Positions 9,001 to 62,938 of a DNA stretch of 64,000 nucleotides are shown here, piece after piece. The stretch is from Lineus longissimus (Eukaryota > Nemertea > Pilidiophora > Heteronemertea > Lineidae). Under the pieces are notes generated by a model. That model had not been told where the DNA came from. It was given only the letters and a program-made list of their open reading frames with translations, and ran no database searches. Position numbers and translations under genes: made by a program. The DNA lies in the NCBI RefSeq assembly GCF_910592395.1, contig NC_088310.1:27483491-27547490 (forward strand), given 5' to 3'. Within the stretch, counting starts at the first letter, position 1. Each line of letters opens with the position of its first letter.

Positions 9001-12000
9001 CAAGGCCATTCAGTGTGGGTAGCACCTGCCAGTCAGGTCAGGTTTGTCCAGCGAACAAGTATATGCTTAAAGACAGCAACCCGCATCAAAAGATTTGCAC
9101 AGCACCTTGGAGAACAAAATCAACTTCACTATTTCCAAATCTCACCTTCAAAGATGTTTCCTTGATCGTTTCTAAGTAAAGAATGGTCCTCTGTGCGACT
9201 GCTGACTTCATGTCATCCAGGGAGCCAATCAGATAGCAGAAGGCATGGGCAAGGGACGTCAGGATTGGTTGGTTGCTCTTGATTGCCTTCAGTTCCATCA
9301 GTCGAGCTAGGATGGTCACTTTCTCAACTGAAAGAGGAAGAATATAATTACTGACACAATGCTCGTTATCTGGACCAAGTAACTTTACCACGATTGGCTG
9401 ATCGAGTTCCCTGAGCCTATGCTAGGACAAGCATAAGATAAAGGCCTGACCCATGTTAACAGTACCCTGTGATAGTCACCCCTTCCAACTGAGGTCGGAA
9501 TCACCCGGCCAACGGCACTTAACACTAGTGTCTCCAAGCAATACGCTTACTATGAGATTATAACAAACACAAAAGGTGAAGTACATTTCTTAAGTGATTT
9601 TAAGTACCAACCTGCTGCAAATCTTAACCTCCAGTCATCATTGGTGAAGTCATGTTCAGTGAGGCCCCAGAAGATGTCAGCACCAGAGGGCAGGGTCAGG
9701 CAATGCAGCATCAATGGTACATTCACTGATGCAATATGAGACAAGTCAGCCTGCAGTAGCTTCCAGAGACTGAAAGAGGAAGATCATCATTAGACATAGT
9801 GAAGTAGTGTCCAGCGACATCCCTTTGGACAAGGCCAACGAGAATGGGGTTGTGAGATGCTCTCCATTCCGAAACTCCTATCTCCTACTCCTGGCACCAG
9901 GGGAGAAAGCTGGTTGTGACAGAAACGGGTCATGAACTAAACCCGCCATGTCACAGGTATACATCTAATCAATATATCGTTGCGCTCAATTGAAGGGAAA
10001 AAGAGTCAAAGATGGCCTGATAAAGATTTGAATGTAAGACAAGATCATGAAAGACTCAATAGCATGACTAAGTCACTTACTTTGGAAGGAGCATCTTCTT
10101 GAGGGAGTACTTCACAAACTCCTCAGTGTCCTTGGCAGCGTAATTGAGGCATTCAGCATGCAGACAGAGAAGCTTCAAAGTCTTCAGCAGATAGTAGATG
10201 GCCTGGTGGTCCTTCTCTCGACACAACTCCTGAAGTCAAATATTAAGGTCTGTGGTGTCATGATGTCCTGTGCTCATTTCACATAGTTTATTCAGTGGTG
10301 AGATTTTACCTTCACGTGTTCAGTTACATACTGGGGGAGACCATGTCAATGGCCAACTGTGCATGATGTTGTTATCGTGACTAGACCATTCTGTAACAGA
10401 TACAATTACATGGGGGTGTATAATACGCGCCGGTCACCGATCCAAAGGTTGACCGCGCTCAACGTTGCTTAACTTCCACTCTGGGACCAACGCGCCAACC
10501 ACTGGGCCATAAAGGAATTCCCTCATGGCCGGCGGGTTAAGCCGTGCCATATACGTGGGGGTACTATACATCATTCCCCCCTTCGGACAGAGATGGATCG
10601 TCCGCGATCCTACTTAGCGCTTCATGCGTCTCAGTATCGAACTACAAATCCAGAGCTCGCATCGCGTGGGAAGGTCTGCCAGATGTATTGTACGCGCCGG
10701 TCACCGATCCAAAGGTTGACCGCACTCAACGTTGCTTAACTCCCACTCTGGGGCCAACGCGCCAACCACTGGGCCATAAAGGAATTCCCTCATGGCCAGC
10801 GGGTTAAGCCGTGCCATATACCTGGGGGTACTATACAGGGGGGAGCTGCATGTCACTGACACCCACCTGCAGAAGAGCATAAATGAGCTGGAGATGAACT
10901 GGCAGTTGGTTCAGTTCAAACGATGGACCCTCATCCTGGTCATCGGCTGGAGGTATAGGATGGTGCTGACCTGCAGTAGAATAACAACAAATTGATCAGC
11001 AGGCAATCATAGGAGATTTTGTACCAAATATTTCATTCTTCTTTTCAGAAGAGCAAGATTAATCTTAAATCCTTATACATTTGGCCTTTTTTTCTTCTTT
11101 CGTTCACCACGTTTTAGACAGTCAGTCCGGATTTTATTATAAAGTCGGTGGTCCTGCGTAGCTGCTGGAGATCCTACAAATCAGCATCATAACAACAACT
11201 TACTGTGAACCTTTGGAATCTCTTCCACCTTTGGTAACTCCTTTTCGGGCAGTCTGACCGCATCTCGAGGCGTGATGAACTCCACTGCCTGGCAGCAGAG
11301 CTGATGCCAGAGAGCACACTTGTGGCACATGACACAGTTAGTGGAGACAACATCGGTGCAGGTGTGAGTACCGTCCCAGGGGGCATGCACCATCTTAGTA
11401 ATGAGGGACATGATCTCTTTAGACATCTCGTGGAAGATGCTTTGGTGGCGCGGTGCATCCTGCAGCTCAGCCTGAAAATTTGAATTCAGAAGACATCAAT
11501 GGTACATTTTGGTACCTTTTGCCTTTGTTAAAACTCAAGTGATCTATTCACAAATAATGAGGGACAGCAAACTCCGGATAGACTTCCATCCACACAGGCT
11601 TGATGGTCACCCATTTCTGCTCAGGAAGCATGTTGAAATCATTATAAGACAAGCCATTAATAGGAATCTCCAAGGCCTGGCGACAAGAATGTGAAGCTAC
11701 TCTTACAGAGAAGAACTGAATGTCCTGAAGAGGCAAGGAAGCCTGCCAAAAACTGTAAGACACTGCTCTCTGGAGGCCCTATGCTCCATCAGGAGTAAAT
11801 GAGGGAAGTTAGTATAGGTATGAGTGATGGTCCAAAAGTTAACAATCTGCTCCAACAGAGAACAACTAAATATCCTGGGAAGTGGTTAAGCCCAATAAGA
11901 AGTGCATGACACTGGCTTGAGGAGCCCCTTTGCTTGATCCGGATTCAAGGAGCTAAGTTAGTGTTGGTATAAGTTATGCCGTATAGAGTTGTCAACACAA

Positions 12001-15000: not shown

Positions 15001-18000
15001 TTTCAAATCAAGGTTAGAAAGATAAAGCACCAAAACAAATGAAAAAAAAATGAAAGGTTCAAGTCCATGATTATTGCAATTGTCAGATGTTAGGATATAT
15101 CTTAAACTTGTAACATCTTACACACCCAAAATGAAGATATTCATAGAGCGCTTTCAGGCAAATCCACGGTTCATAGACCCATGAATACCAATTCAACATG
15201 ATTTCATGTTTTTTATCTAAATATCTTCATTTGAGGTTGATGTTTGGTGTTGAGTTGGTCAAGTATCCAGAGCAGGTCAGTGAAGAGCCACACTAAACCA
15301 TACTGTACCTGATTTTATTTTGGGTGATCCTAAATCAAAGATGGATTATTTTTAGAATTGTTCATAAGAAATTGCCATGCGCTTCAAATGTATCAGGCTT
15401 GTAGTGACGCAAGGCTCGAAAATAAGAAACCTGTAGCATATATATCAGCACCAGATCGAATACTGTGTGTCTGATGCCGCGGCCCATGTGTCCATGCACA
15501 AAGAACCGAGACACCACACGCTTGAAAGAAAATATTCTTACATACTTGATCAGGAATAGCATAAGAGTTTTCTGTGGGAGCTTTCTCTGCAAAGTTTGCA
15601 TGGACCCAAGTCGAGGGAACTGCCCAGGGCTTGAGAATGTGGAGAAATCTTGTTGGCTACCTGTGCTCCACTTGGAGTGACAGAGTAAAGTCAAGTCACG
15701 TCAAAGAATCTTGATTTAGAAGTCGACCTATTTCCGAGCTCTGCATCAGGACAAGGAGACAAAGAATCTAACAAAGCAAAAACTTTACTCAGAAGAGACA
15801 GATGTTATGACCGAGACAGTGAGGCTATATGTCAGAGATAACTAACAGACAAACACATCATTTCTAGTAAGTTCCTCAGGAGAGATGTCTGAAGACAAGG
15901 GTTGATAGCTAAATAGAATATGAGGAGTAATGTTAAAACTAACACAGATTCAAAGAAACACACATATATTCTCTTTGGTAAATGATTGGGAAATTGATCT
16001 TACCATCCGGGAGATATGCTGTGGCATCAAACCACTGGAACAACATCGCTATAAGTCGACCCAAGATCTCCTGAAATATGGTAAGAAAGCTCATTTTAAA
16101 GTGTATTCGATCTTCATCTAATCTTTGAACCCAACTTCCTGTCATTTGACCAAGGTCTCCATGCTAGCTGGCTCTCAGGACTAAGCCAGCAGGACTGATC
16201 GGGTATGTACTGCTGCCTGTCTGGTTGCCTCTACTCTCCTAAGGTCCAACAGGATTGGAATCAGCCCATGATCTTTGTCAAATCCAGCTTGGTCTAATGC
16301 GTCCCTGATTAGCTTGGTCTAATGCGTCCCTGATTAACTTTGCCTAACTCCTATAAACCAGTCTCTCGTGAACATGTGACATTGGATGCTTGACACTTCT
16401 CATTGATGATTCCAAATGAACAGTTTACTTACCACCGGTACTTCTTGGCTTGGCGGGCACAGCTCCACCAGTAGCCAGACTCCGTATCTACTCAACAGCT
16501 TCTGTTCCTCGTCGTCTTCGTTTTCTTCCTCGTCCTCATCCTCCAGATGTTGCTGGGTGACCTCCTCACCCATCTCCACCACTCGCTTGGTCTCCATTGG
16601 CTGAGCCTCTTTCAGAAGTCTATAAACACAATCAATGCACATAAAGCGTTATAAGAAGTCTTCTGCTTGATACCTTGTGCCAGAAATCACTCCACATAAT
16701 ACAGATCACAAGTCTGAAACCTTACATTAGACCATGCCACCTTTCTTGAGAGTTTAGATCGAGAAAAGGACAATACCTTACCTGACGATGGCTTCCACCA
16801 AGTAGCACTGCAACTCCGGATCACATTGCCAGACACACGGCACAGTCACCTGGACCACATGTTTCTTGTTGGCATGTCGAGCTTTGTGGCAGTTCTCACA
16901 GAAGCGGATCGGCCGGTTGCCGTTGAAGCTTGCACACTCGATGTGGAAACACGTGCACATGGCTATGTTGTCTTTGGTGGTGCAGTTCTGAAAAAACAAC
17001 GATATTCCACTGTTGAACAAACCATGAAATTGTGCAACATGAAATATGTAACTGCTCAGTTGAACAAGTTGTAGAAAAGGTCTCTCAATGTGATGGGGAA
17101 ATACCTTGGTGGAGTTCAACCCTTTTGTAATTCGATCATTCAATTCGTCTCCTACCTTGTTCTCACATACGAGTGAGACGTGGTCCATGGGAAGCAAGAC
17201 GTCCACGAGATGTTCGGCATGACTCCGCCTCAGGACATCCACACAGCTACCACAGATATAGAGGGGCGGTGGCTTGTCTGCTGCTTCGATGGCAAGAGAT
17301 GGATCCAAACACATCTGAAATGAAAACAATCAAAAGTTTTCTACTGCTAGAAATCCTTCAGTCTACCGGAGCATTCTTGATTAGGGACCTACAGTGAGAT
17401 ATCAATATCTGTACTGAAATGGCTCAGAGTGACCGTTGGTCAACATAGCAGTCCTTAGCGCTCCTTGGGTGCCACACCAAGGACTATGGCTCAACGCCTT
17501 GTCCATTTCAAGTATTGACCCCAAGACAAATGCCTTTCAGAATTCTCATTTCCAGCTGCATTTTTGACTTTGATATGATTATGATCCTGCACTGTGCACA
17601 GACATTCAATACTTGACTGGAGTGAAAACCTTACTCACTTTTATAGCCACACTATTGCCAGCATTGGTGCAATTCTCTCTCTGGCATGTCAACGGCTTCC
17701 AGGCTTCAAGGGAAGAAGAAACAGTAGTTGTTTTATCAATCGAATTACTGTACGGAGATTTGAATGCAGTAACATTCATGTAGGGCGCTCCCTGCTTCAC
17801 ACACAAGCTTTATCTCATGTATGATGTACTTGAGGAATGTCTACTCCTGTATGAACTAATCAGTGTTGTCTATTGCCTTCTTTTGAATATGTGAGTTAAA
17901 AGTCTGAAGATGCAATTTGGGAATTGTGGAGGAACTTGAGTCAGTTATAGTGACTGAACGACTGGAGCAGACCAGCTCTTCTCTTTGTCAGCACTCACAA

Positions 18001-28820: not shown

Positions 28821-31800
28821 ATGTACAGTAGCTTAGAGAGTATAGAGGCACGGTTTCGTGAACTTGAAAAGAACCTTTGTGATCCAGGAACGTTTATATG
28901 TCCACCGAGACCTCCTGTTCCAACGTGGCTTTTCGAAATTAAATCTGATGACATTAAGTATGAAATTGCTGCAGGATGTTCTTCAGGTAAGTAACTTTTC
29001 AACTGCTAGTGCTAGAGGAATCCCCAGAGTTTTTAATGACCCATACTTACTTTGCCCCCCCCCCCCGCGGATTCTACCAATCCAACTAAGGGTTGACTCA
29101 TTAGCTTCTTCAAAGCCTTGTTTAACGAGGGTTAATAACGCTAACATACTGTTGTCATACATTATGCTTGTGTTGTTTACCCACCAATCAATTACTGACC
29201 ACCATCCTTTCAAAAGTTAGGGATGCATATTTGTGATACAAATTACCCCTAATTTATGTATTTTTACTGTTGGTACCAGTTCCTGTTAATTTCCGATTTT
29301 ATATGAGGAATGCTCAGTGATTACAATTTCCGATCGGATTGTTTTTATGAGCATGATTGACCAATTTTTGACTGAGTGTTGGGAGATAATGCAAATTTTA
29401 TGAGCGATGCCTTTCTTGCCTTAAAAATGTGGTGAAGTGCAGTGGAACTTCTCTTGGTGGACACCTCTGTAAACAGGACTCCCTCTCTATTCAGGACAGT
29501 GGTTTTGGTTGTGAATGGGTCATTTCTCTAATGATTTGATCTCTGTAATCAGGACACGTCGCTATGAACGACAGCATCAGTCTCACGGGTGGCCTAGAGA
29601 AGCTTTTCTGTATTTCACTGAAATTCAAGATCAGAAAGGTTTTTTCACACGACATCTTTTTCCCCGGATTAGTCTATTCCCTGCATTTAGAACACCCTGA
29701 GTGGCTTAACGGCATTCTTCAGTCACAAGGCTGTTCTTCTTCATGATATCACATTATCAGCAGACGATTGAGTTCCAGTGGCATATATTGATGACACAAA
29801 GCTCATACTCAACACCAGCAATACTGATTGCTGCTATTTCCATGTAAAAAGATAATGAATTTTTGGTTGGTCTTAAAAAAAGATAATGGATGACAGGAAT
29901 AATCAATAAATAATATGGTGTGGTTAAATTGGGTTTGTTCAGCCTATTGTGTGTTGTGAGGCAACAGGTTTTTAAGTATCATCAAGTATACTAAAATGTC
30001 GGTTGTATTATACGCGCCGGTCACCGATCCAATGGTTGACCGCGCTCAATGTTGCTTAACTTCCACTCTGGGGCCAACGCGCCAACCACTAGGCCATAAA
30101 GGAATTCCCTCATGGCCGGCGGGTTAAGCCGTGCCATATACCTGGGGGTACTATACATCATTCCCCCCTTCGGACAGAGATGGATCGTCCGCGATCCTAC
30201 TTAGCGCTTCATGCGTCTCAGTACCGAACTACAAATCCAGAGCTCGCATCACGTGGGAAGGTCTGCCAGATGTATTATACGCGCCGGTCACCGATCCAAA
30301 GGTTGACCGCGCTCAACATTGCTTAACTTCCACTCTGGGGCCAACGCGCCAACCACTAGGCCATAAAGGAATTCCCTCATGGCCGGCGGGTTAAGCCGTG
30401 CCATATACCTGGGGGTACTATACATCATTCCCCCCTTCGGACAGAGATGGATCGTCCGCGATCCTACTTAGCGCTTCATGCGTCTCAGTACCGAACTACA
30501 AATCCAGAGCTCGCATCGCATGGGAAGGTCTGCCAGATGTATTGTACGCGCCGGTCACCGATCCAAAGGTTGACCGCGCTCAACATTGCTTAACTTCCAC
30601 TCTGGGGCCAACGCGCCAACCACTAGGCCATAAAGGAATTCCCTCATGGCCGGCGGGTTAAGCCGTGCCATATACCTGGGGGTATTATACATCGGTCATA
30701 TCAGATCGATTGACGAATGCTTTTGGTGAGTGTCTTCTCCTAAAGACTAGTCTTTATCAACTCATGCTTCCATGGATTTTTATATTGAATTTCAAGAGAG
30801 CTAGAGCATTTACCAATTGTCCACTGACATGATCAATTCTTGGAATAGTTGGCAATCATAACCTTTATATCACTAAAGGATAAGGTGTAAAGGTACTAAT
30901 TTGCATCCCATGTGTCACGACAATGAGATTTGGAGAAATCCTCACTTCTCCCTCAAGAGGGCAAGTAGAGGTGAGTATCCCCAAAGTAAAGAGACCACAC
31001 ACAGCTCAGGATACCTTGGCGCTGATGTTTACCAACCACACATGGTGTGGGGCGTTCATGCCTCTTGGATTGGATGCCTCAGGGTAGAAATATATCACTG
31101 AGAACCATCAGGCCTTCTACTGAGTCTTCTGCCATGGCTATCTGTGGACGTTTGCAATTCCTGTCAAAGTGGTGGGTGATATTGCTGGACCTCACTTTCA
31201 CTTTCACTATAGTTTGTTGCTTTTATTCTTTCCACCTGTTTATTAGAAATCAATTACCTGTGGGGTCATGTGACTCAGTAAAATTCTCACACTTGTGGTT
31301 GTCATGGCAACAGAACTTGTTTGATATTCGTTGGCGGTTTTGAGACAGGAGGGTCGTTGTGTGTCTTGTTTATACTGTGATGGTTTGTTTATGTTGTGTT
31401 GGAGGAGAAATTGCTCGGTGCTGTTGGTGATTTCATATGGTAGGTTATGTCCTTGCACATCGTTTTTCTTGCCTCGACAGGAGCACCAGGTTGTGATTAA
31501 CATGTGCATGTGATATACTGTGTGCATCTTTGAGGAGCGCTGCTGACCACCATTCCTTGATACAGCTGGTGCAGTAGTGTTGAGTTGAAGTTCACATACC
31601 CGATGTGCACTTAAATCCATCTGTGTCATCCTCCCTATAACGCGTTAAGAAGGACCTAATACTGTCTTAAACACTTCTGTCCATGTGCACTCTTAAAGCG
31701 AACTGGAACCGCCGAGCGATTTATTCAACTTTTCGACTTTCACCGCCCGAGAAAGTCAAACTTCCAACTTCCTATTCGAGTTCAGATTTGTAGCTCCGCC

Positions 31801-36058: not shown

Positions 36059-36270
36059 ACTATGTTTTACAATACAATTATCATTTTAGTTTCTTGGGAA
36101 CTCAGATGTGTCATTCTGAGGGCAAATGGGTGTGGCCTGATATGGTTGTTCATGGATGTGTCCTATAGATTGGCAATAGATTGACCATGGCTATGGATGT
36201 GTCCTCTATTGGTTTGACCATGAACATGGATGATACCTCTATAGATTGACCATGGATGCGTCTTCTCTTG

Positions 36271-37328
36271 ATTGACCATGATCATGGATGTGCTAGAGAG
36301 ATTGACCATGATCATGGATGTGCTAGAGAGATTGACCATGATCATGGATGTGCTAGAGAGATTGACGACCATGATCATGGATGTGCTAGAGAGATTGACC
36401 ATGATCATGGATGTGCTCGAGAGATTGACCATGATCATGGATGTGCTAGAGAGATTGACCATGATCATGGATGTGCTCGAGAGATTGACCATGATCATGG
36501 ATGTGCTAGAGAGATTGACCATGATCATGGATGTGCTCGAGAGATTGACCATGATCATGGATGTGCTCGAGAGATTGACCATGATCATGGATGTGCTAGA
36601 GAGATTGACCATGATCATGGATGTGCTCGAGAGATTGACCATGATCATGGATGTGCTAGAGAGATTGACCATGATCATGGATGTGCTCGAGAGATTGACC
36701 ATGATCATGGATGTGCTAGAGAGATTGACCATGATCATGGATGTGCTAGAGAGATTGACCATGATCATGGATGTGCTCGAGAGATTGACCATGATCATGG
36801 ATGTGCTCGAGAGATTGACCATGATCATGGATGTGCTCGAGAGATTGACCATGATCATGGATGTGCTAGAGAGATTGACCATGATCATGGATGTGCTAGA
36901 GAGATTGACCATGATCATGGATGTGCTTGAGAGATTGACCATGATCATGGATGTGCTCGAGAGATTGACCATGATCATGGATGTGCTAGAGAGATTGACC
37001 ATGATCATGGATGTGCTCGAGAGATTGACCATGATCATGGATGTGCTAGAGATTGACCATGATCATGGATGTGCTAGAGATTGACCATGATCATGGATGT
37101 GCTAGAGAGATTGACCATGATCATGGATGTGCTAGAGAGATTGACCATGATCATGGATGTGCTAGAGAGATTGACCATGATCATGGATGTGCTAGAGATT
37201 GACCATGATCATGGATGTGCTAGAGAGATTGACCATGATCATGGATGTGCTAGAGAGATTGACCTTGATCATGGATGTGCTCGAGAGATTGACCATGATC
37301 ATGGATGTGCTAGAGAGATTGACCATGG
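36271..37328. repeat. 30-bp minisatellite, about 35 copies
   Basis: The unit is ATTGACCATGATCATGGATG followed by TGCTAGAGAG. It contains the perfect 12-bp palindrome CCATGATCATGG. Units differ mainly at one base (CTAGAG, CTCGAG or, once, CTTGAG). One unit has a 3-bp insertion (36364-36366) and three near 37050, 37078 and 37195 lack 2 bp. Degenerate copies extend on both sides (about 36170-36270 and 37329-37600). Because the unit is 30 bp, several frames stay open on both strands, but these are not genes. It lies between the 3' ends of two convergent genes. Confidence 0.95.
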
Positions 37329-38390: not shown

Positions 38391-41300
38391 TCAATCACTC
38401 TCCGCACCAGAGCTTCCGCCACCAAAGATGTCCTCCTCGTCTTTATGGACCTTCTCAGCCTCACTCTCACTGCCACTGTCACTCCCACTGCCATGACCAC
38501 TCCCACTGCCAGCTGGACTACCAGATCGAACACTTGACGGTGACACTGATCGGGACCGTGAACGAGATCTGGACCTGGATTTAGATTTTGACCGGGAACG
38601 TGACCTTGACCTTGATCTGGAGCCTGACCGTGAACGTGATCCTGACCTTGATCTGGATCGTGAACGAGATCCAGATCTTGACCTTGACCTTGACCGTGAT
38701 CCAGACCCAGAACGGGATCCAGATCTTGACCTTGACCTTGAGCGGGATCCAGACCCTGAACGAGATCCAGACCTTGACCTTGAACGTGATCTTGAACCTG
38801 ACCTTGACCTGGAACGTGACCTTGATCCAGAGCTTGAACGCGACCCTGACCGTGATCTTGATCCAGATCGTGACCGACTACTTCCACTTTTGAAGCTTCC
38901 AAGGTCGTCATCTTCAACATTCCCATCGCCTGAAAAGTTATGAAAACATCAATAAGAATGGGCACTATGAGCTCATGGCGTATCTGAATACAAAAACACA
39001 GCTAAGAATTTACTACTGTTGAGGACCCTGCTCATCAAATATGCATTCGAACTCAAGAATAATTATGTTTAATTTTGTTGTCAGATGAAGTGTCCCGGGC
39101 CAGAGACAGTCATTCTCCTCTGTATTTCTGGTACCGACCTGCTGGAAGCTCCATCTCTTCCTCCTCCTCCTCTTCCTCTCCAGGTGGACCAAGCATAGAT
39201 GAACGGATTTCCTGAAGAACGGAGACAAAATGTGAATCAAAAGAGAATCACATCATAAAAAGAAAAACCATTAAACAATACTCTGCTGCATCTTTGTTTG
39301 CCGCTCAATTGGGGAGGTCTAAATCCAGTTACTGATTTAGCTCGGCTTCCTGTCCAAAGACAAGCTTACAAAACAAATCAAACAAGCGTGTTACCTGTGC
39401 GTGCTCTTCTCTCTTATCCAATGACCTGTGTTTCACAATAAGTCTTGTAGATGGTGTTGGGCCAGCACCGGCAACCTTTCTTCTCTTACTAAGACGAACT
39501 CTTGTCTCCAACTCGTTATAATAGACACCATTCTCCTTGATTACGAAGAAATACGTCTCCTCGTATCCTCGAGATGACTTGTTCTTGACGTTCCAGTTGT
39601 ATTCTCGGGCTAATGTGTAATCATATCTGAAGGATACAGAGCGATTGGAATGAAATTGGGCTGACTAAATCTCTGAGGTGGCCAACAGAGGAAGCCCATC
39701 TCCGCATTACCAGGCAAGACTGACTTGAAATCAACAAGGAGAAGCTAACAGAGGAAGGCCAAAGAACACCTGGCAGTGTGACACCACAGCAGATGTGAGA
39801 CTGATGTCATTCACCTGGAAAGAACTGGAGGAGCTGGCAAAGAACAAGCAGAATTTGTTGATCACCTTTGTGACACTTGGCATTAACAAGGCACGACAAA
39901 ACCCGAGTACTCGATCGTATTGTGAAAGCCCTTGACCACTTAGACATGAGCACCGCCAAGATACTTACTCCTCATCTGACATGTATTCCTTGCCCTCTTC
40001 AGTGTCTCGCTTCCTCTTCTTGGTCGTGTCTTCCGTTGGAAGGAAATACGCAACAAACTGCTCACCGCTTTCATCCACCACACCTCTGAAATAGAACAGG
40101 AGAAACTCTCCAGTTGTAAAACAGTCGTCTTACACAAAACTTCAAAAAACACTGCATCTGTGTGCTCTCTGAGCCAATCGCCACACTTCTTCAATAATCA
40201 AATTAAAGGGCAACCTGAACTGATAACAGTCATGTCATATTCATCTATCAAAATTGGGGGAGTAAAACTATCATAACTTTACTTGTTACAAATAAACTGA
40301 TATGTCTCGCAAAGAGGGGGTGCTCTCATACCTGATCATGGCCTGTGACATTTCATCAATCTGAGCTGGAACAGACATTCCCTTGGGTGCAGGGTCCGAG
40401 TCGAATATAACTTGAGCACATGGATGTTTCCACAACTGCAAGAATAAACATGGATATACATGTAGTTAGTTTACCAACTTGAATCTGATAAATTAAACAT
40501 CATAAGAATTCAAACAACTCATCATACAGCTGTTCTTATCAAAAATATACCAGCTTACTAAATATATCTTTGGTCTTATCAAAATATCGTAACGGCGGTC
40601 GATGGTTCACTTACCTCAAAATCTGGGAAAACAGGCAGTATGTCAACTGGATGAACCCCAGGCTTGCTATAATGTTTGGTAATCTGCAAAACAAACACAG
40701 ACTTTACCTGATAAATCAAAATGATGACACGATCAGGACATATGTGACATCGACTGCGACTTATACCACACAAGCTTAGAAGTCAAAATCCCTGTATGCA
40801 GATGGGCAAATACTGATGAAGACGATGTGTTTTGACAAAAGAAATTGAGTGTGCTCTCGTACACCACTCCTGAAGCCGTATATAGAACTCACTGGTGTCT
40901 GGGCATATTCAAATGTCTTCTCAATAGCTGCGAGCTGACTTTCTCTGTCCTTGTAAAGGTCTTCATCCTTGAAATGTTTCTTGATATTATAACCAATCCT
41001 GGCCTCTGGTTTGTCGGCAAGTGGTGTGAAGCGATTAAATTCAGTGGAAATGTACTCTGTCTTTCTTAGCCATGAGACGCTCTTGCTGTGGTGACGTGAT
41101 CTGAAATAAGACATAGATTCCAAAATGTCACGCGAAGATAACTGGTAGTGGTAGGCCACATTATGCATCTGAAAGTATAACACAACAATTTGGTGCTTGG
41201 TCCGAAGAGAACACAACATGCTGAGGCAGTCAGACACTACATTTTGAAAAGGAAACCATCAACTGCAGGTCAAGCACTCTTATATTCTAATATTGCCAAT

Positions 41301-49872: not shown

Positions 49873-51920
49873 CTAGGTTGTGACATGGTGATTTGAGGAA
49901 AACGGTTGCACTATCAGGCGCACTTGTTGGCGGGCTGTAAATCTAGTTTTAGACGGCTCCATCACATCCATCTGCGGAACGCTCATATTCACGTTAACAA
50001 TCCACCTTATTTTTCTACTCGCTGCAAACCATGCGGACAAACTCTGAAATATAAATTCTGAAATTTGTATTCGCTTTAATTCAAGATCATTTGCAGTAAT
50101 TAAAGGCTATCGGCAAAGATGTAAAGCTAGGTTACCCGCGAACAAAAGTTTACAGTTCAATACAGCAAACTGCCTTCTCACAAGGCGCCTGGCATTACAG
50201 ATAGGATAGCAAGACTAAGAGTCAACACCTAGCTACACTCTGGACGCAGTGAATCGGCTTCCTCCTGTCGCCCGACGATCAGGATAACGACATGGACTGC
50301 ATGGGAGTCTAACACCTGGTTGGCAATTTCATCAGGGGCAGTACAGGGGCGGTGTCACTGACTTGACTATTACAGTAGCAGTACCTTCATAATCGATGGT
50401 CCCATCTCCATCAATGTCCGCCTCCCGTACCATCTCCTCCACCTCTTCCACGGTGAGTTTCTCTCCCAGGTTAGTCATGACGTGCCTCAGCTCTGCCACG
50501 CTGATGAACCCGTTCTGGTCCTTGTCAAACACCTTGAACGCCTCGCGGAGGACCTCCTGGTTCTGTGGATCCACCATCTGGCGGGCCATTACCGTCAGGA
50601 ACTCGGCGAAATCAATCGTTCCATTCCCTGGATGCAAATATGAGGTTACAATGTAAACCTGCAGTTTCCGATTTAGTGTGACAAAAAGAGCATGGACCGT
50701 ACTGTCCTTCATCAAAAAAAACCCAGCTTGTATCTCAACTTATCGAGACAAGTCAAGGCGTTACCACAACCAATCATCCTTTTCGTTACAATACCTACCA
50801 TCAGTGTCTATTTCATTGATCATTTCGCCGACTTCTTGTTGTGAAGGTGACATTCCTAGGGCTCTCATGATCGTCCCCAACTCAGAGGTGCTGATCATCC
50901 CGTCCGCATCTTTATCAAACAGGAAAAAAGCTTCCCGGAATTCTAAAAGAGAAGGAAACCATACATGTTTCTATGAGACAGTTTTCGCAACCACTGTCGT
51001 TCGTCAGGTTCGCGAATCCTGCTGTCCTCTGATAGGTGTATCACAGTACCTTCTAAAAGACAAACTGATCCGCTATCGTCCAGTTGTCTTCTTACTGCTG
51101 CGTTTTCTTAAACCTTGTGCCTTATCGTTATTGGTCTTGAAGAACCCGACCCTGTTCATTTGGAATTGTTTTAACGGACAACTTTTGAGGCTGTAAAACT
51201 AGGTTATTCTGAGGCTCTTTATCTCAATAGATCGGCTGCCAAATGAAACTGATGGATACCTTACCAGCAATCTGTTCTTCCGTCAATTGGTCAGCCTGTA
51301 AAATTGATGGAAACAGTCCACATTTTCGACCCGATGACCGATAAGCCGAATGATATTGCTGGCAAGGACACGTTTAGTCCGAAGTGGATGGACTCTGACA
51401 CCAACTAGCTTACTGTGTCGTCGAAGGCGTGAACGATGCTGTGTCATAGTGGTGTTCGAATGAGTGATGATGACATCTTGATCGACTCATTGTAAACCAC
51501 ATTACTGATCGACCGAGAACATAGGACTCTTCATTCTGGCCTAGGCCAAGTGATATCTCTACGTATAGGCCTATTGCACGAATACATTGCAGTACAACTC
51601 CTGTCTGTGCAGCAACCTGTTGTATTACTGCACCAGTTACAAAGATAAGCTCTTTGGGATCGCTGATAGAACGGCTCGCTTGTCATAATCTCGTCCCCGA
51701 TTCAGATGACAAAGGACTGCCTCGGGAGTCTAGCGGACACGGGCAGGATGTGATCTTCACATGTTGCATAGATTTATCTACAGCCAACACTAACAACTGC
51801 ACACACTCACCACCATTCAGGAGATGCTAGTTCTAGACAAAACTCACCATTGTAGTCCTTGCCCCCCCCCCTCCTCTATCAGGTATGCTGTTTCGATTAC
51901 AGCTAGACAAAACTCACCAT
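49873..51920 (-). CDS. Calmodulin-like protein A with long C-terminal extension
   Basis: Calcium sensor of the calmodulin family. Exons ATG at 51918-51920 (or the duplicate 51848-51850), 51265-51295, 50799-50942, 50385-50627 and 49873-50057 join in phase into 201 codons. Intron positions match vertebrate calmodulin genes (after ATG; in IA-E; in D-G; in YE-E). Four EF loops are complete: [12 protein letters not shown] (21-32), [24 protein letters not shown] and [12 protein letters not shown] (130-141). After EEF the protein leaves calmodulin: instead of the usual 7-residue end it has about 59 residues (start [17 protein letters not shown]) to a TAG. The last acceptor has only a modest pyrimidine tract, so that exon is the least certain. 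If its donor were skipped the protein would end about 15 residues after YEG. Confidence 0.87.
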
Positions 51921-61800: not shown

Positions 61801-62938
61801 ATTGATTTTGACTTGCTGTACTTGGAAGCTAGGGTGACGTTGCCTGGCTGTGCTCACCCTCGGGCAAGGCTTTGTCATTATAGTCTATTTGCCTGTCAAT
61901 TTTGTACATGTTATCGGAATCTCTTGAGGTACATTACGAGCCAGTGATTGAAATACAAGACATTTTCACTTGATAAAGTTAATGGATTTCTGTCCAGGCT
62001 TTCATTCACTTTGACTTGTACCTGTTCTAGATGCCCTCTGAGAACTACCACCCCTAATATGATTAAAGCAAAAGTTATTTCCTTTGACTTGTACCTGTTC
62101 TAGATGCCCTCTGACTGAGAACTACTCCTAATATGATTGAAGCACAAGTCATTCCCTTTGACTTGTACCTGTTCTAGATGCCCTCTGACTGAGAACTACC
62201 ACCCCTAATATGATTAAAGCACAAGTCATTCCCTTTGACTTGTACCTGTTCTAGATGCCCTCTGACTGAGAACTACTCCTAATATGATTGAAGCACAAGT
62301 CATTCCCTTTGACTTGTACCTGTTCTAGATGCCCTCTGACTGAGAACTACCACCCCTAATATGATTAAAGCACAAGTCATTCCCTTTGACTTGTACCTGT
62401 TCTAGATGCCCTCTGACTGAGAACTACCACCCCTAATATGATTAAAGCACAAGTCATTCCCTTTGACTTGTACCTGTTCTAGATGCCCTCTGACTGAGAA
62501 CTACCCCTAATATGATTAAAGCACAAGTCATTCCCTTTGACTTGTACCTGTTCTAGATGCCCTCTGACTGAGAACTACTCCTAATATGATTAAAGCACAA
62601 GTCATTCCCTTTGACTTGTACCTGTTCTAGATGCCCTCTGACTGAGAACTACCACCCCTAATATGATTAAAGCACAAGTCATTCCCTTTGACTTGTACCT
62701 GTTCTAGATGCCCTCTGACTGAGAACTACCCCTAATATGATTAAAGCACAAGTCATTCCCTTTGACTTGTACATGTACATGTACATGTGGAAACCCTGGA
62801 AGAACCTCTCCTAATATGATGTATTTTGTTGCAGTGACTGGTCCTCTCCAGGAGCTACAAATTGCCTTTGTCTGCAGGGAAACACTAAAGGGCCTTGCCT
62901 ACTTACACAGTAAAGGGAAAATGCATCGGGATATCAAG
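55835..62938 (+). CDS. MAP4K3/MAP4K5: MAP4K3/5-like GCK-family kinase, N-terminal half of kinase domain (continues off right edge)
   Basis: Ste20/germinal-centre kinases of this type act upstream of JNK and in nutrient/mTORC1 and Hippo signalling. Exons 55835-55942, 59410-59467, 59908-59998, 61119-61183 and 62835-62938 join in phase to 142 codons. Visible are [19 protein letters not shown], the P loop [10 protein letters not shown], the catalytic Lys in [11 protein letters not shown], the C-helix Glu in [10 protein letters not shown], hinge MEYCGGGS, and the catalytic-loop start MHRDIK, where the exon ends. Residues are a mix of vertebrate MAP4K3 and MAP4K5, as expected of a single invertebrate orthologue. 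ATG at 55835 follows an in-frame TGA; a second ATG is six bases on. The rest of the kinase, the linker and the citron-homology domain lie outside the window. Confidence 0.93.
55943..59409. other. MAP4K intron 1, nothing recognised
   Basis: 3.5 kb intron. Open frames on both strands have no motif or splice support. No repeat array or mobile element is recognised. Confidence 0.55.
59561..59775. repeat. 36-bp minisatellite, six copies
   Basis: The unit begins TTGTCCTTGAGCTGACAGGC and ends ATGTGGTCTG. Six head-to-tail copies with at most one or two substitutions each fill half of the 440-bp MAP4K intron 2. Frames through it stay open because 36 is a multiple of three, but it is not coding. Confidence 0.95.
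59999..61118. other. MAP4K intron 3, nothing recognised
   Basis: 1.1 kb intron without recognised repeat or gene. Confidence 0.5.
62010..62771. repeat. Tandem array of 71-79-bp units, ten copies
   Basis: Each unit starts TTTGACTTGTACCTGTTCTA and ends GCACAAGTCATTCCC. Two main length classes differ around GAACTACCACCCCTAATATG and GAACTACTCCTAATATG; the first copy lacks CTGA. The array lies at the end of MAP4K intron 4, 64 bp before the exon 62835-62938. The unique DNA between it and the exon repeats the unit's CTCCTAATATGAT, a plausible branch-site sequence. Confidence 0.93.

Follow-up and report, generated by a model that had tools for sequence, protein, structure and literature searches.

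The window analyzed here, a stretch of 64,000 nucleotides of Lineus longissimus DNA, carries at positions 30004-30691 (minus strand) a compact array of repeats, each with a stretch that resembles part of a 5S rRNA gene. This raises the questions of which family of elements the array belongs to, how it came to hold three LTRs and which machinery copies such an element.

The array and its place among known elements

The array has the form LTR-int-LTR-int-LTR, with three 154-bp LTRs, two 113-bp interiors and TCGGT on both sides; the coordinates thus agree with the earlier note, whose account did not include the canonical copy at 10417-10837. The following features were distinguished:

29999-30003: target-site duplication TCGGT, left of the array
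30004-30157, minus strand: 3' LTR of the array (element orientation)
30158-30270, minus strand: interior 1
30271-30424, minus strand: middle LTR of the array
30425-30537, minus strand: interior 2
30538-30691, minus strand: 5' LTR of the array (element orientation)
30692-30696: target-site duplication TCGGT, right of the array
30018-30063, minus strand: 5S-promoter-like stretch of the 3' LTR (LTR 95-140 = host 5S 48-93; position mapped from the majority-LTR alignment)
30285-30330, minus strand: 5S-promoter-like stretch of the middle LTR (position mapped from the alignment)
30552-30597, minus strand: 5S-promoter-like stretch of the 5' LTR (position mapped from the majority-LTR alignment)
30521-30535, minus strand: putative primer-binding site of interior 2, majority form with one extra A (TGGCAGACCTTCCCA)
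30254-30268, minus strand: putative primer-binding site of interior 1, majority form
30425-30437, minus strand: polypurine tract AAGGGGGGAATGA of interior 2
30158-30170, minus strand: polypurine tract of interior 1
10417-10837, minus strand: second, canonical 421-bp copy (LTR 10417-10570, interior 10571-10683, LTR 10684-10837)
10412-10416: target-site duplication GGGGG, second copy, left
10838-10842: target-site duplication GGGGG, second copy, right

In element (minus-strand) orientation the array LTRs start with TGTAT and finish with ATACA, and the interiors start with TCTGGCAGACCTTCCC and finish with AAGGGGGGAATGA. The signals previously noted on the minus strand, TGGCAGACC after the LTR (separated from it by TC) and the G-rich tract AAGGGGGGAATGA before the next LTR, are both present, the latter closing each interior of the array. 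The LTR pairs show 3, 5 and 2 mismatches per 154 bases, and the two interiors differ at 2 of 113. Of the two 5S-like blocks quoted earlier, TTGGATCGGTGACC occurs in all three array LTRs; GAAGTTAAGCAACG is found verbatim in none of them, since they read ...GCAACA or ...GCAATG at that position, and is the majority form of the family.

The surrounding DNA is ordinary gene-bearing chromosome, as frames match the UNC-79, Paf1 and EF-hand families (16781-17329, 40779-41258 and 50335-50739, respectively, all on the minus strand). The window also holds about ten 74-bp tandem repeats (62002-62776) and a 30-bp unit repeated about 35 times (36270-37327); a frame overlapping the latter scores with Pfam pentapeptide repeats, probably as a by-product of the repeat.

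The element is very probably the already published Ajax-1_LiLo, matched on the features given in its published description. Ajax was reported from Notospermus geniculatus and L. longissimus, with 1114 LTRs and 151 interiors; Ajax-1_LiLo is given as 421 bp long, with a partial 5S sequence (boxes A, IE and C) in the LTR and 5-bp duplications (Kojima, 2024; PMC10886601). Since Ajax appeared in that 2024 paper, the statement that no animal counterpart had been described does not hold. The window element shares with Ajax-1_LiLo and Ajax-1_NGe (i) the TRIM structure (154 + 113 + 154 = 421 bp, the length of Ajax-1_LiLo), (ii) a partial 5S sequence in the LTR, (iii) 5-bp target duplications, and with the published family (iv) the host L. 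longissimus and (v) an excess of LTRs over interiors. Among the papers listed, the only further literature on Ajax is a 2026 meeting report, with one sentence on it (PMC12859917). Three-LTR Ajax arrays, hybrids and a candidate partner do not figure in the sections of PMC10886601 consulted; new here are the exact duplication counts, the solo LTRs, more three-LTR arrays, the tRNA-Arg(ACG) site and two hybrid insertions. We are confident that the feature is explained as a three-LTR Ajax-1_LiLo array, together with the steps proposed below for its replication, partner, hybrids and array origin.

Three other groups of TRIMs come close. Cassandra likewise has a 5S promoter in its LTR and forms short arrays of about three LTRs (PMC7215508). 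However, it is a plant family that keeps both promoter and terminators of 5S, whereas the window element is of animal origin and has the promoter part only; moreover, the search pattern for Cassandra has the primer site TGGTATCAGAGC (PMC7215508), unlike that of Ajax. Membership in Cassandra was rejected on the host, the primer site and the absence of TTTT from the majority LTR and interior, and an independent origin of Ajax is argued in PMC10886601. Helenus, also reported in Lineus, has a putative polymerase III promoter in its LTR (PMC10886601), but this is tRNA-derived (boxes A and B) and the duplications in animals are of 4 bp, in contrast to the 5S-derived promoter and 5-bp duplications found here; with no GGTTCGANNCC in the majority sequence, this assignment was rejected too. 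The bivalve biv-TRIM is likewise an animal element that occurs both solo and in tandem, but its repeats are of 202-218 bp and its main text does not contain the term 'polymerase III' (PMC6934838). Three-LTR or tandem forms of TRIMs are thus known from both Cassandra (PMC7215508) and the bivalve element (PMC6934838).

The 5S-like promoter and the priming signals

Positions 95-140 of the majority LTR (consensus of 83 LTRs) align with positions 48-93 of the host 5S rRNA with a score of 49, the maximum in 5000 dinucleotide shuffles being 34 (0/5000 reach 49). The earlier interpretation of the feature, as an animal TRIM whose LTRs hold a 5S promoter, is borne out by both structure and alignment, and the match does not fade across the family. 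The aligned stretch is what we take to be the internal promoter, with boxes A, IE and C. The host 5S genes form arrays on contigs C6 and C5 (47 scored matches). Against a human 5S sequence the score fell to 26, a value that 6 of 2000 shuffles attained, and the Rfam 5S model gave no match in the element, in which the promoter part alone is present. A tRNA-type box A-like motif at LTR position 62 is weak (pattern in 86 of 3000 shuffles), and tRNA ancestry of LTR 41-94 was rejected, as 2371 (strict) or 472 (loose) of 3000 shuffles matched the host tRNA-Arg equally well.

Transcription by RNA polymerase III would start in the 5' LTR; with the spacing of 5S kept, the start would lie about 47 bases upstream of the 5S-like stretch. 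No TTTT terminator occurs in the majority LTR or interior, so that transcripts made by polymerase III would have to end at a weak stop or else extend into flanking DNA; even so, the first strand might be transferred to the 3' LTR.

Among 44 interiors, 33 start with TCTGGCAGACCT, 8 with TCTGGCGACCTT and 3 otherwise. A search with a tRNA 3'-end pattern gave 23 matches (1 in the control), 11 of them with the common end CCTGGGAAGGTCG; two of the three of these that were read are tRNA-Arg(ACG) genes according to ARAGORN and Rfam. The third, locus L153, considered as a tRNA gene with a matching end, proved on reading not to be one, and a search for tRNA 3' ends fitting TGGCAGACC gave no signal (342 matches, 359 in the control). 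Of the 8 interiors that start with TCTGGCGACCTT, seven have a site perfectly complementary to the tRNA-Arg(ACG) 3' end plus CCA for 14 nt, and the eighth (L022; C19:13424442 onward) for 18 nt. Reverse transcriptase usually copies eighteen bases of a tRNA primer, and the L022 site therefore looks freshly rewritten from tRNA-Arg(ACG). The majority site (33/44 interiors, including all three in the window) contains an additional A and pairs perfectly over 4 nt only. In this comparison, which covered the 3' end of tRNA-Arg(ACG), that tRNA appears to be the better-supported primer candidate, though with a bulge in most copies. The fit in 8/44 interiors differs from the published account, in which the primer is tRNA-Leu, a reported rather than a defining property of Ajax (PMC10886601). 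The minus strand would be primed by tRNA-Arg and the plus strand by the G-rich tract, and a foreign integrase would insert the Ajax DNA.

A 17-mer of the polypurine tract plus TGTA has 70 matches in the genome and none for the reversed control. In 67 of the 69 matches viewed, the sequence upstream is an Ajax interior, complete or partial, and the remaining two (L089 and L110) are cut at the tract; an autonomous partner traced through this tract was thus rejected. At L089 (262-2823) there is a Gypsy-like element with its own LTRs (97% alike), the primer site TGGCGACGAGG and a gag-like frame, whose match is just under the Pfam cut-off; much of its middle is gone, with an Ajax piece, from the polypurine tract through the LTR, in place. 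At L110 (816-969) an Ajax LTR preceded by little beyond the polypurine tract lies in other DNA, perhaps as strong-stop DNA joined to the genome.

Copies in the genome and the origin of the three-LTR form

The L. longissimus genome note gives 391 Mb in 32 scaffolds (PMC8593623); the sequence searched comprised 391,118,348 bases in 30 contigs. The 421-bp query gave 421 candidates, 40 of which were scored, and the 45 matches listed correspond to 40 loci (38 plus the two window copies). Among these matches the element ends, with TG/CA termini, are flanked by exact 5-bp duplications at 31/40 loci and by duplications with one mismatch at 4/40, as against 4/480 in shifted controls, in support of the earlier interpretation. 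A duplication is also present at 15 of 17 further loci, which comprise 12 of the 13 solo LTRs, a pair of two-LTR elements and a three-LTR array (L109). The exceptions are L119 and L110, the latter a truncated copy. Where two LTRs of a locus were scored (37 loci), divergence within the pair has a median of 2.0% and a mean of 2.7%; a length filter excluded the incomplete third LTR at L030. Local clusters of Ajax were seen at C3:27.337-27.514 Mb, with two three-LTR arrays, and at C13:16.11-16.17 Mb, although the query consisted of the window's own copies, which may bias this picture.

A satellite-like tandem repeat of 5S-gene origin, rather than a retrotransposon, is a scarcely credible reading of the array: Tandem Repeats Finder does report 2.6 copies of a 267-bp unit, but 421-bp copies and solo LTRs, both with TG/CA ends, are scattered over many contigs, and the 5-bp duplications flanking them refute this reading.

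Three-LTR arrays number four among the 40 listed loci: the window array, L009, L015 and L030 (third LTR partial). An exact duplication is present at L015 and absent at L009 and L030. The variant T67 is found in all three LTRs of the window array and in none of the 80 other scored LTRs; growth from a single element is therefore the most likely history of the array. Unequal recombination between LTRs, on sister or allelic copies of that element, would be a simple explanation of the three-LTR form and would preserve the outer duplication. Reverse transcription, through concatenated cDNA, would be a less likely source, and the LTR variants fit both origins alike.

Hybrid insertions and the candidate partner lineage

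A search for the primer site without a preceding Ajax LTR end gave 12 matches (2 in the control), and together with the reading of loci L068 and L142 it revealed two hybrid insertions, which account for two of the 12. In each, the 5' LTR is a different, 200-bp sequence, and the interior and 3' LTR are those of Ajax. The hybrid L068 (C2:10543.1-10543.6 kb) has AACTT on both sides; the second (C16:4400023-4400489), whose LTRs were placed by searches and not by full reading, has TTTGC. Since the duplications differ, the two are separate integrations. At L136 (C13:16160172 onward) an Ajax interior follows yet another LTR-like end (...GGGGGAGACTAAACA); this is possibly a third hybrid, with a different partner.

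The 200-bp LTR contains CATAAAA (TATA-like) at position 52 and AATAAA at 112, and has no match to 5S (score 17 against 44). It agrees with the Ajax LTR in 14 of 16 bases at the start and in the final 8 (A[C/T]AATACA in both families), and between these ends the two are essentially unrelated. There are 12 matches to it in the genome, 7 of them near full length, two of which are those of the hybrids. On contigs C3, C9 and C10 the sequence after the LTR is TCTGGCGACCTTCCC, as in the minority interiors of Ajax, and three primer sites of the 200-bp-LTR family are 13-nt perfect complements of tRNA-Arg(ACG). The tract before the 3' LTR of the C3 element is AGGAGGGGGGTGA. The 200-bp LTR thus adjoins nearly the same primer site as that of Ajax. 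A coding domain was not found for the family in the material searched. In a 361-base sample of the interior at the C3 locus (C3:12351884-12363722, 12 kb), frames reach at most 73 aa, and none of the 150 scored out of 1018 Peptidase_A17 candidates lies at a 200-bp-LTR locus. PMC10886601 names no autonomous element for Ajax in the sections consulted and states that there is no indication of one behind Cassandra.

In ordinary reverse transcription the two LTRs of an element end up identical, and where unlike LTRs lie within one duplication, sequence must therefore have been exchanged prior to integration. The strong-stop DNA of the plus strand comprises the whole LTR and the primer site. Such DNA of a 200-bp-LTR element would be transferred, at the primer site common to both, to the minus strand of Ajax, giving a product with a foreign LTR, the Ajax interior and an Ajax LTR, which is the polarity seen in both resolved hybrids; the transfer would require both elements in one particle. 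The hybrids fit strong-stop transfer between co-packaged elements and suggest a partner lineage, and a second element family probably shares its copying machinery with Ajax. With slightly better than even confidence, we propose that Ajax and an LTR element of polymerase II type use the same particles, enzymes and tRNA-Arg(ACG) primer, the hybrids being fossils of plus-strand strong-stop transfer; the machinery would be common to Ajax and the 200-bp-LTR lineage and perhaps supplied by the latter. One point counts against transfer: the primer site in both hybrids is the majority one of Ajax, extra A included, not the site of the 200-bp-LTR family, so that the minus-strand version must have won at the junction. 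No title among the literature listed concerns strong-stop transfer in TRIMs.

The 200-bp-LTR family may itself be a fellow passenger. That it is non-autonomous too, with a third, unseen element supplying the enzymes for both, is a possibility to be entertained, if short of probable; it agrees with the low copy number (7 near-full LTRs, and 3 genome matches to the leader), with the want of a coding domain in the C3 sample and the scored Peptidase_A17 candidates, and with the L136 interior behind yet another LTR end. We consider it unlikely that the hybrids began as ordinary Ajax insertions whose 5' LTR later underwent gene conversion by, or ectopic recombination with, a 200-bp LTR. The short common ends and the nearly identical primer-site junction could seed conversion, and the majority site in both hybrids is in line with it. 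However, the LTRs are essentially unrelated between their ends, the polarity (foreign 5' LTR, Ajax 3' LTR) is the same at two loci, and each hybrid lies within its own 5-bp duplication, which an ectopic crossover would be expected to destroy. If this were nevertheless their origin, the hybrids would be silent on co-packaging.

The observation made on the window is thus sound and its element already published; the hybrid copies are the new, testable part. PMC10886601 argues that LTR homology may be unnecessary for mobilization, and hybrids that share only LTR ends and primer site offer a concrete test of that idea. Copies with LTRs of different families inside one target duplication provide a way to search for the partners of other promoter-swapped TRIMs. 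If co-packaging is true, the 200-bp-LTR family would be the first named partner lineage for a TRIM with a 5S promoter, and it would follow that a TRIM can replace an entire LTR by one of polymerase III type and retain no more than the signals at the termini and the primer site.
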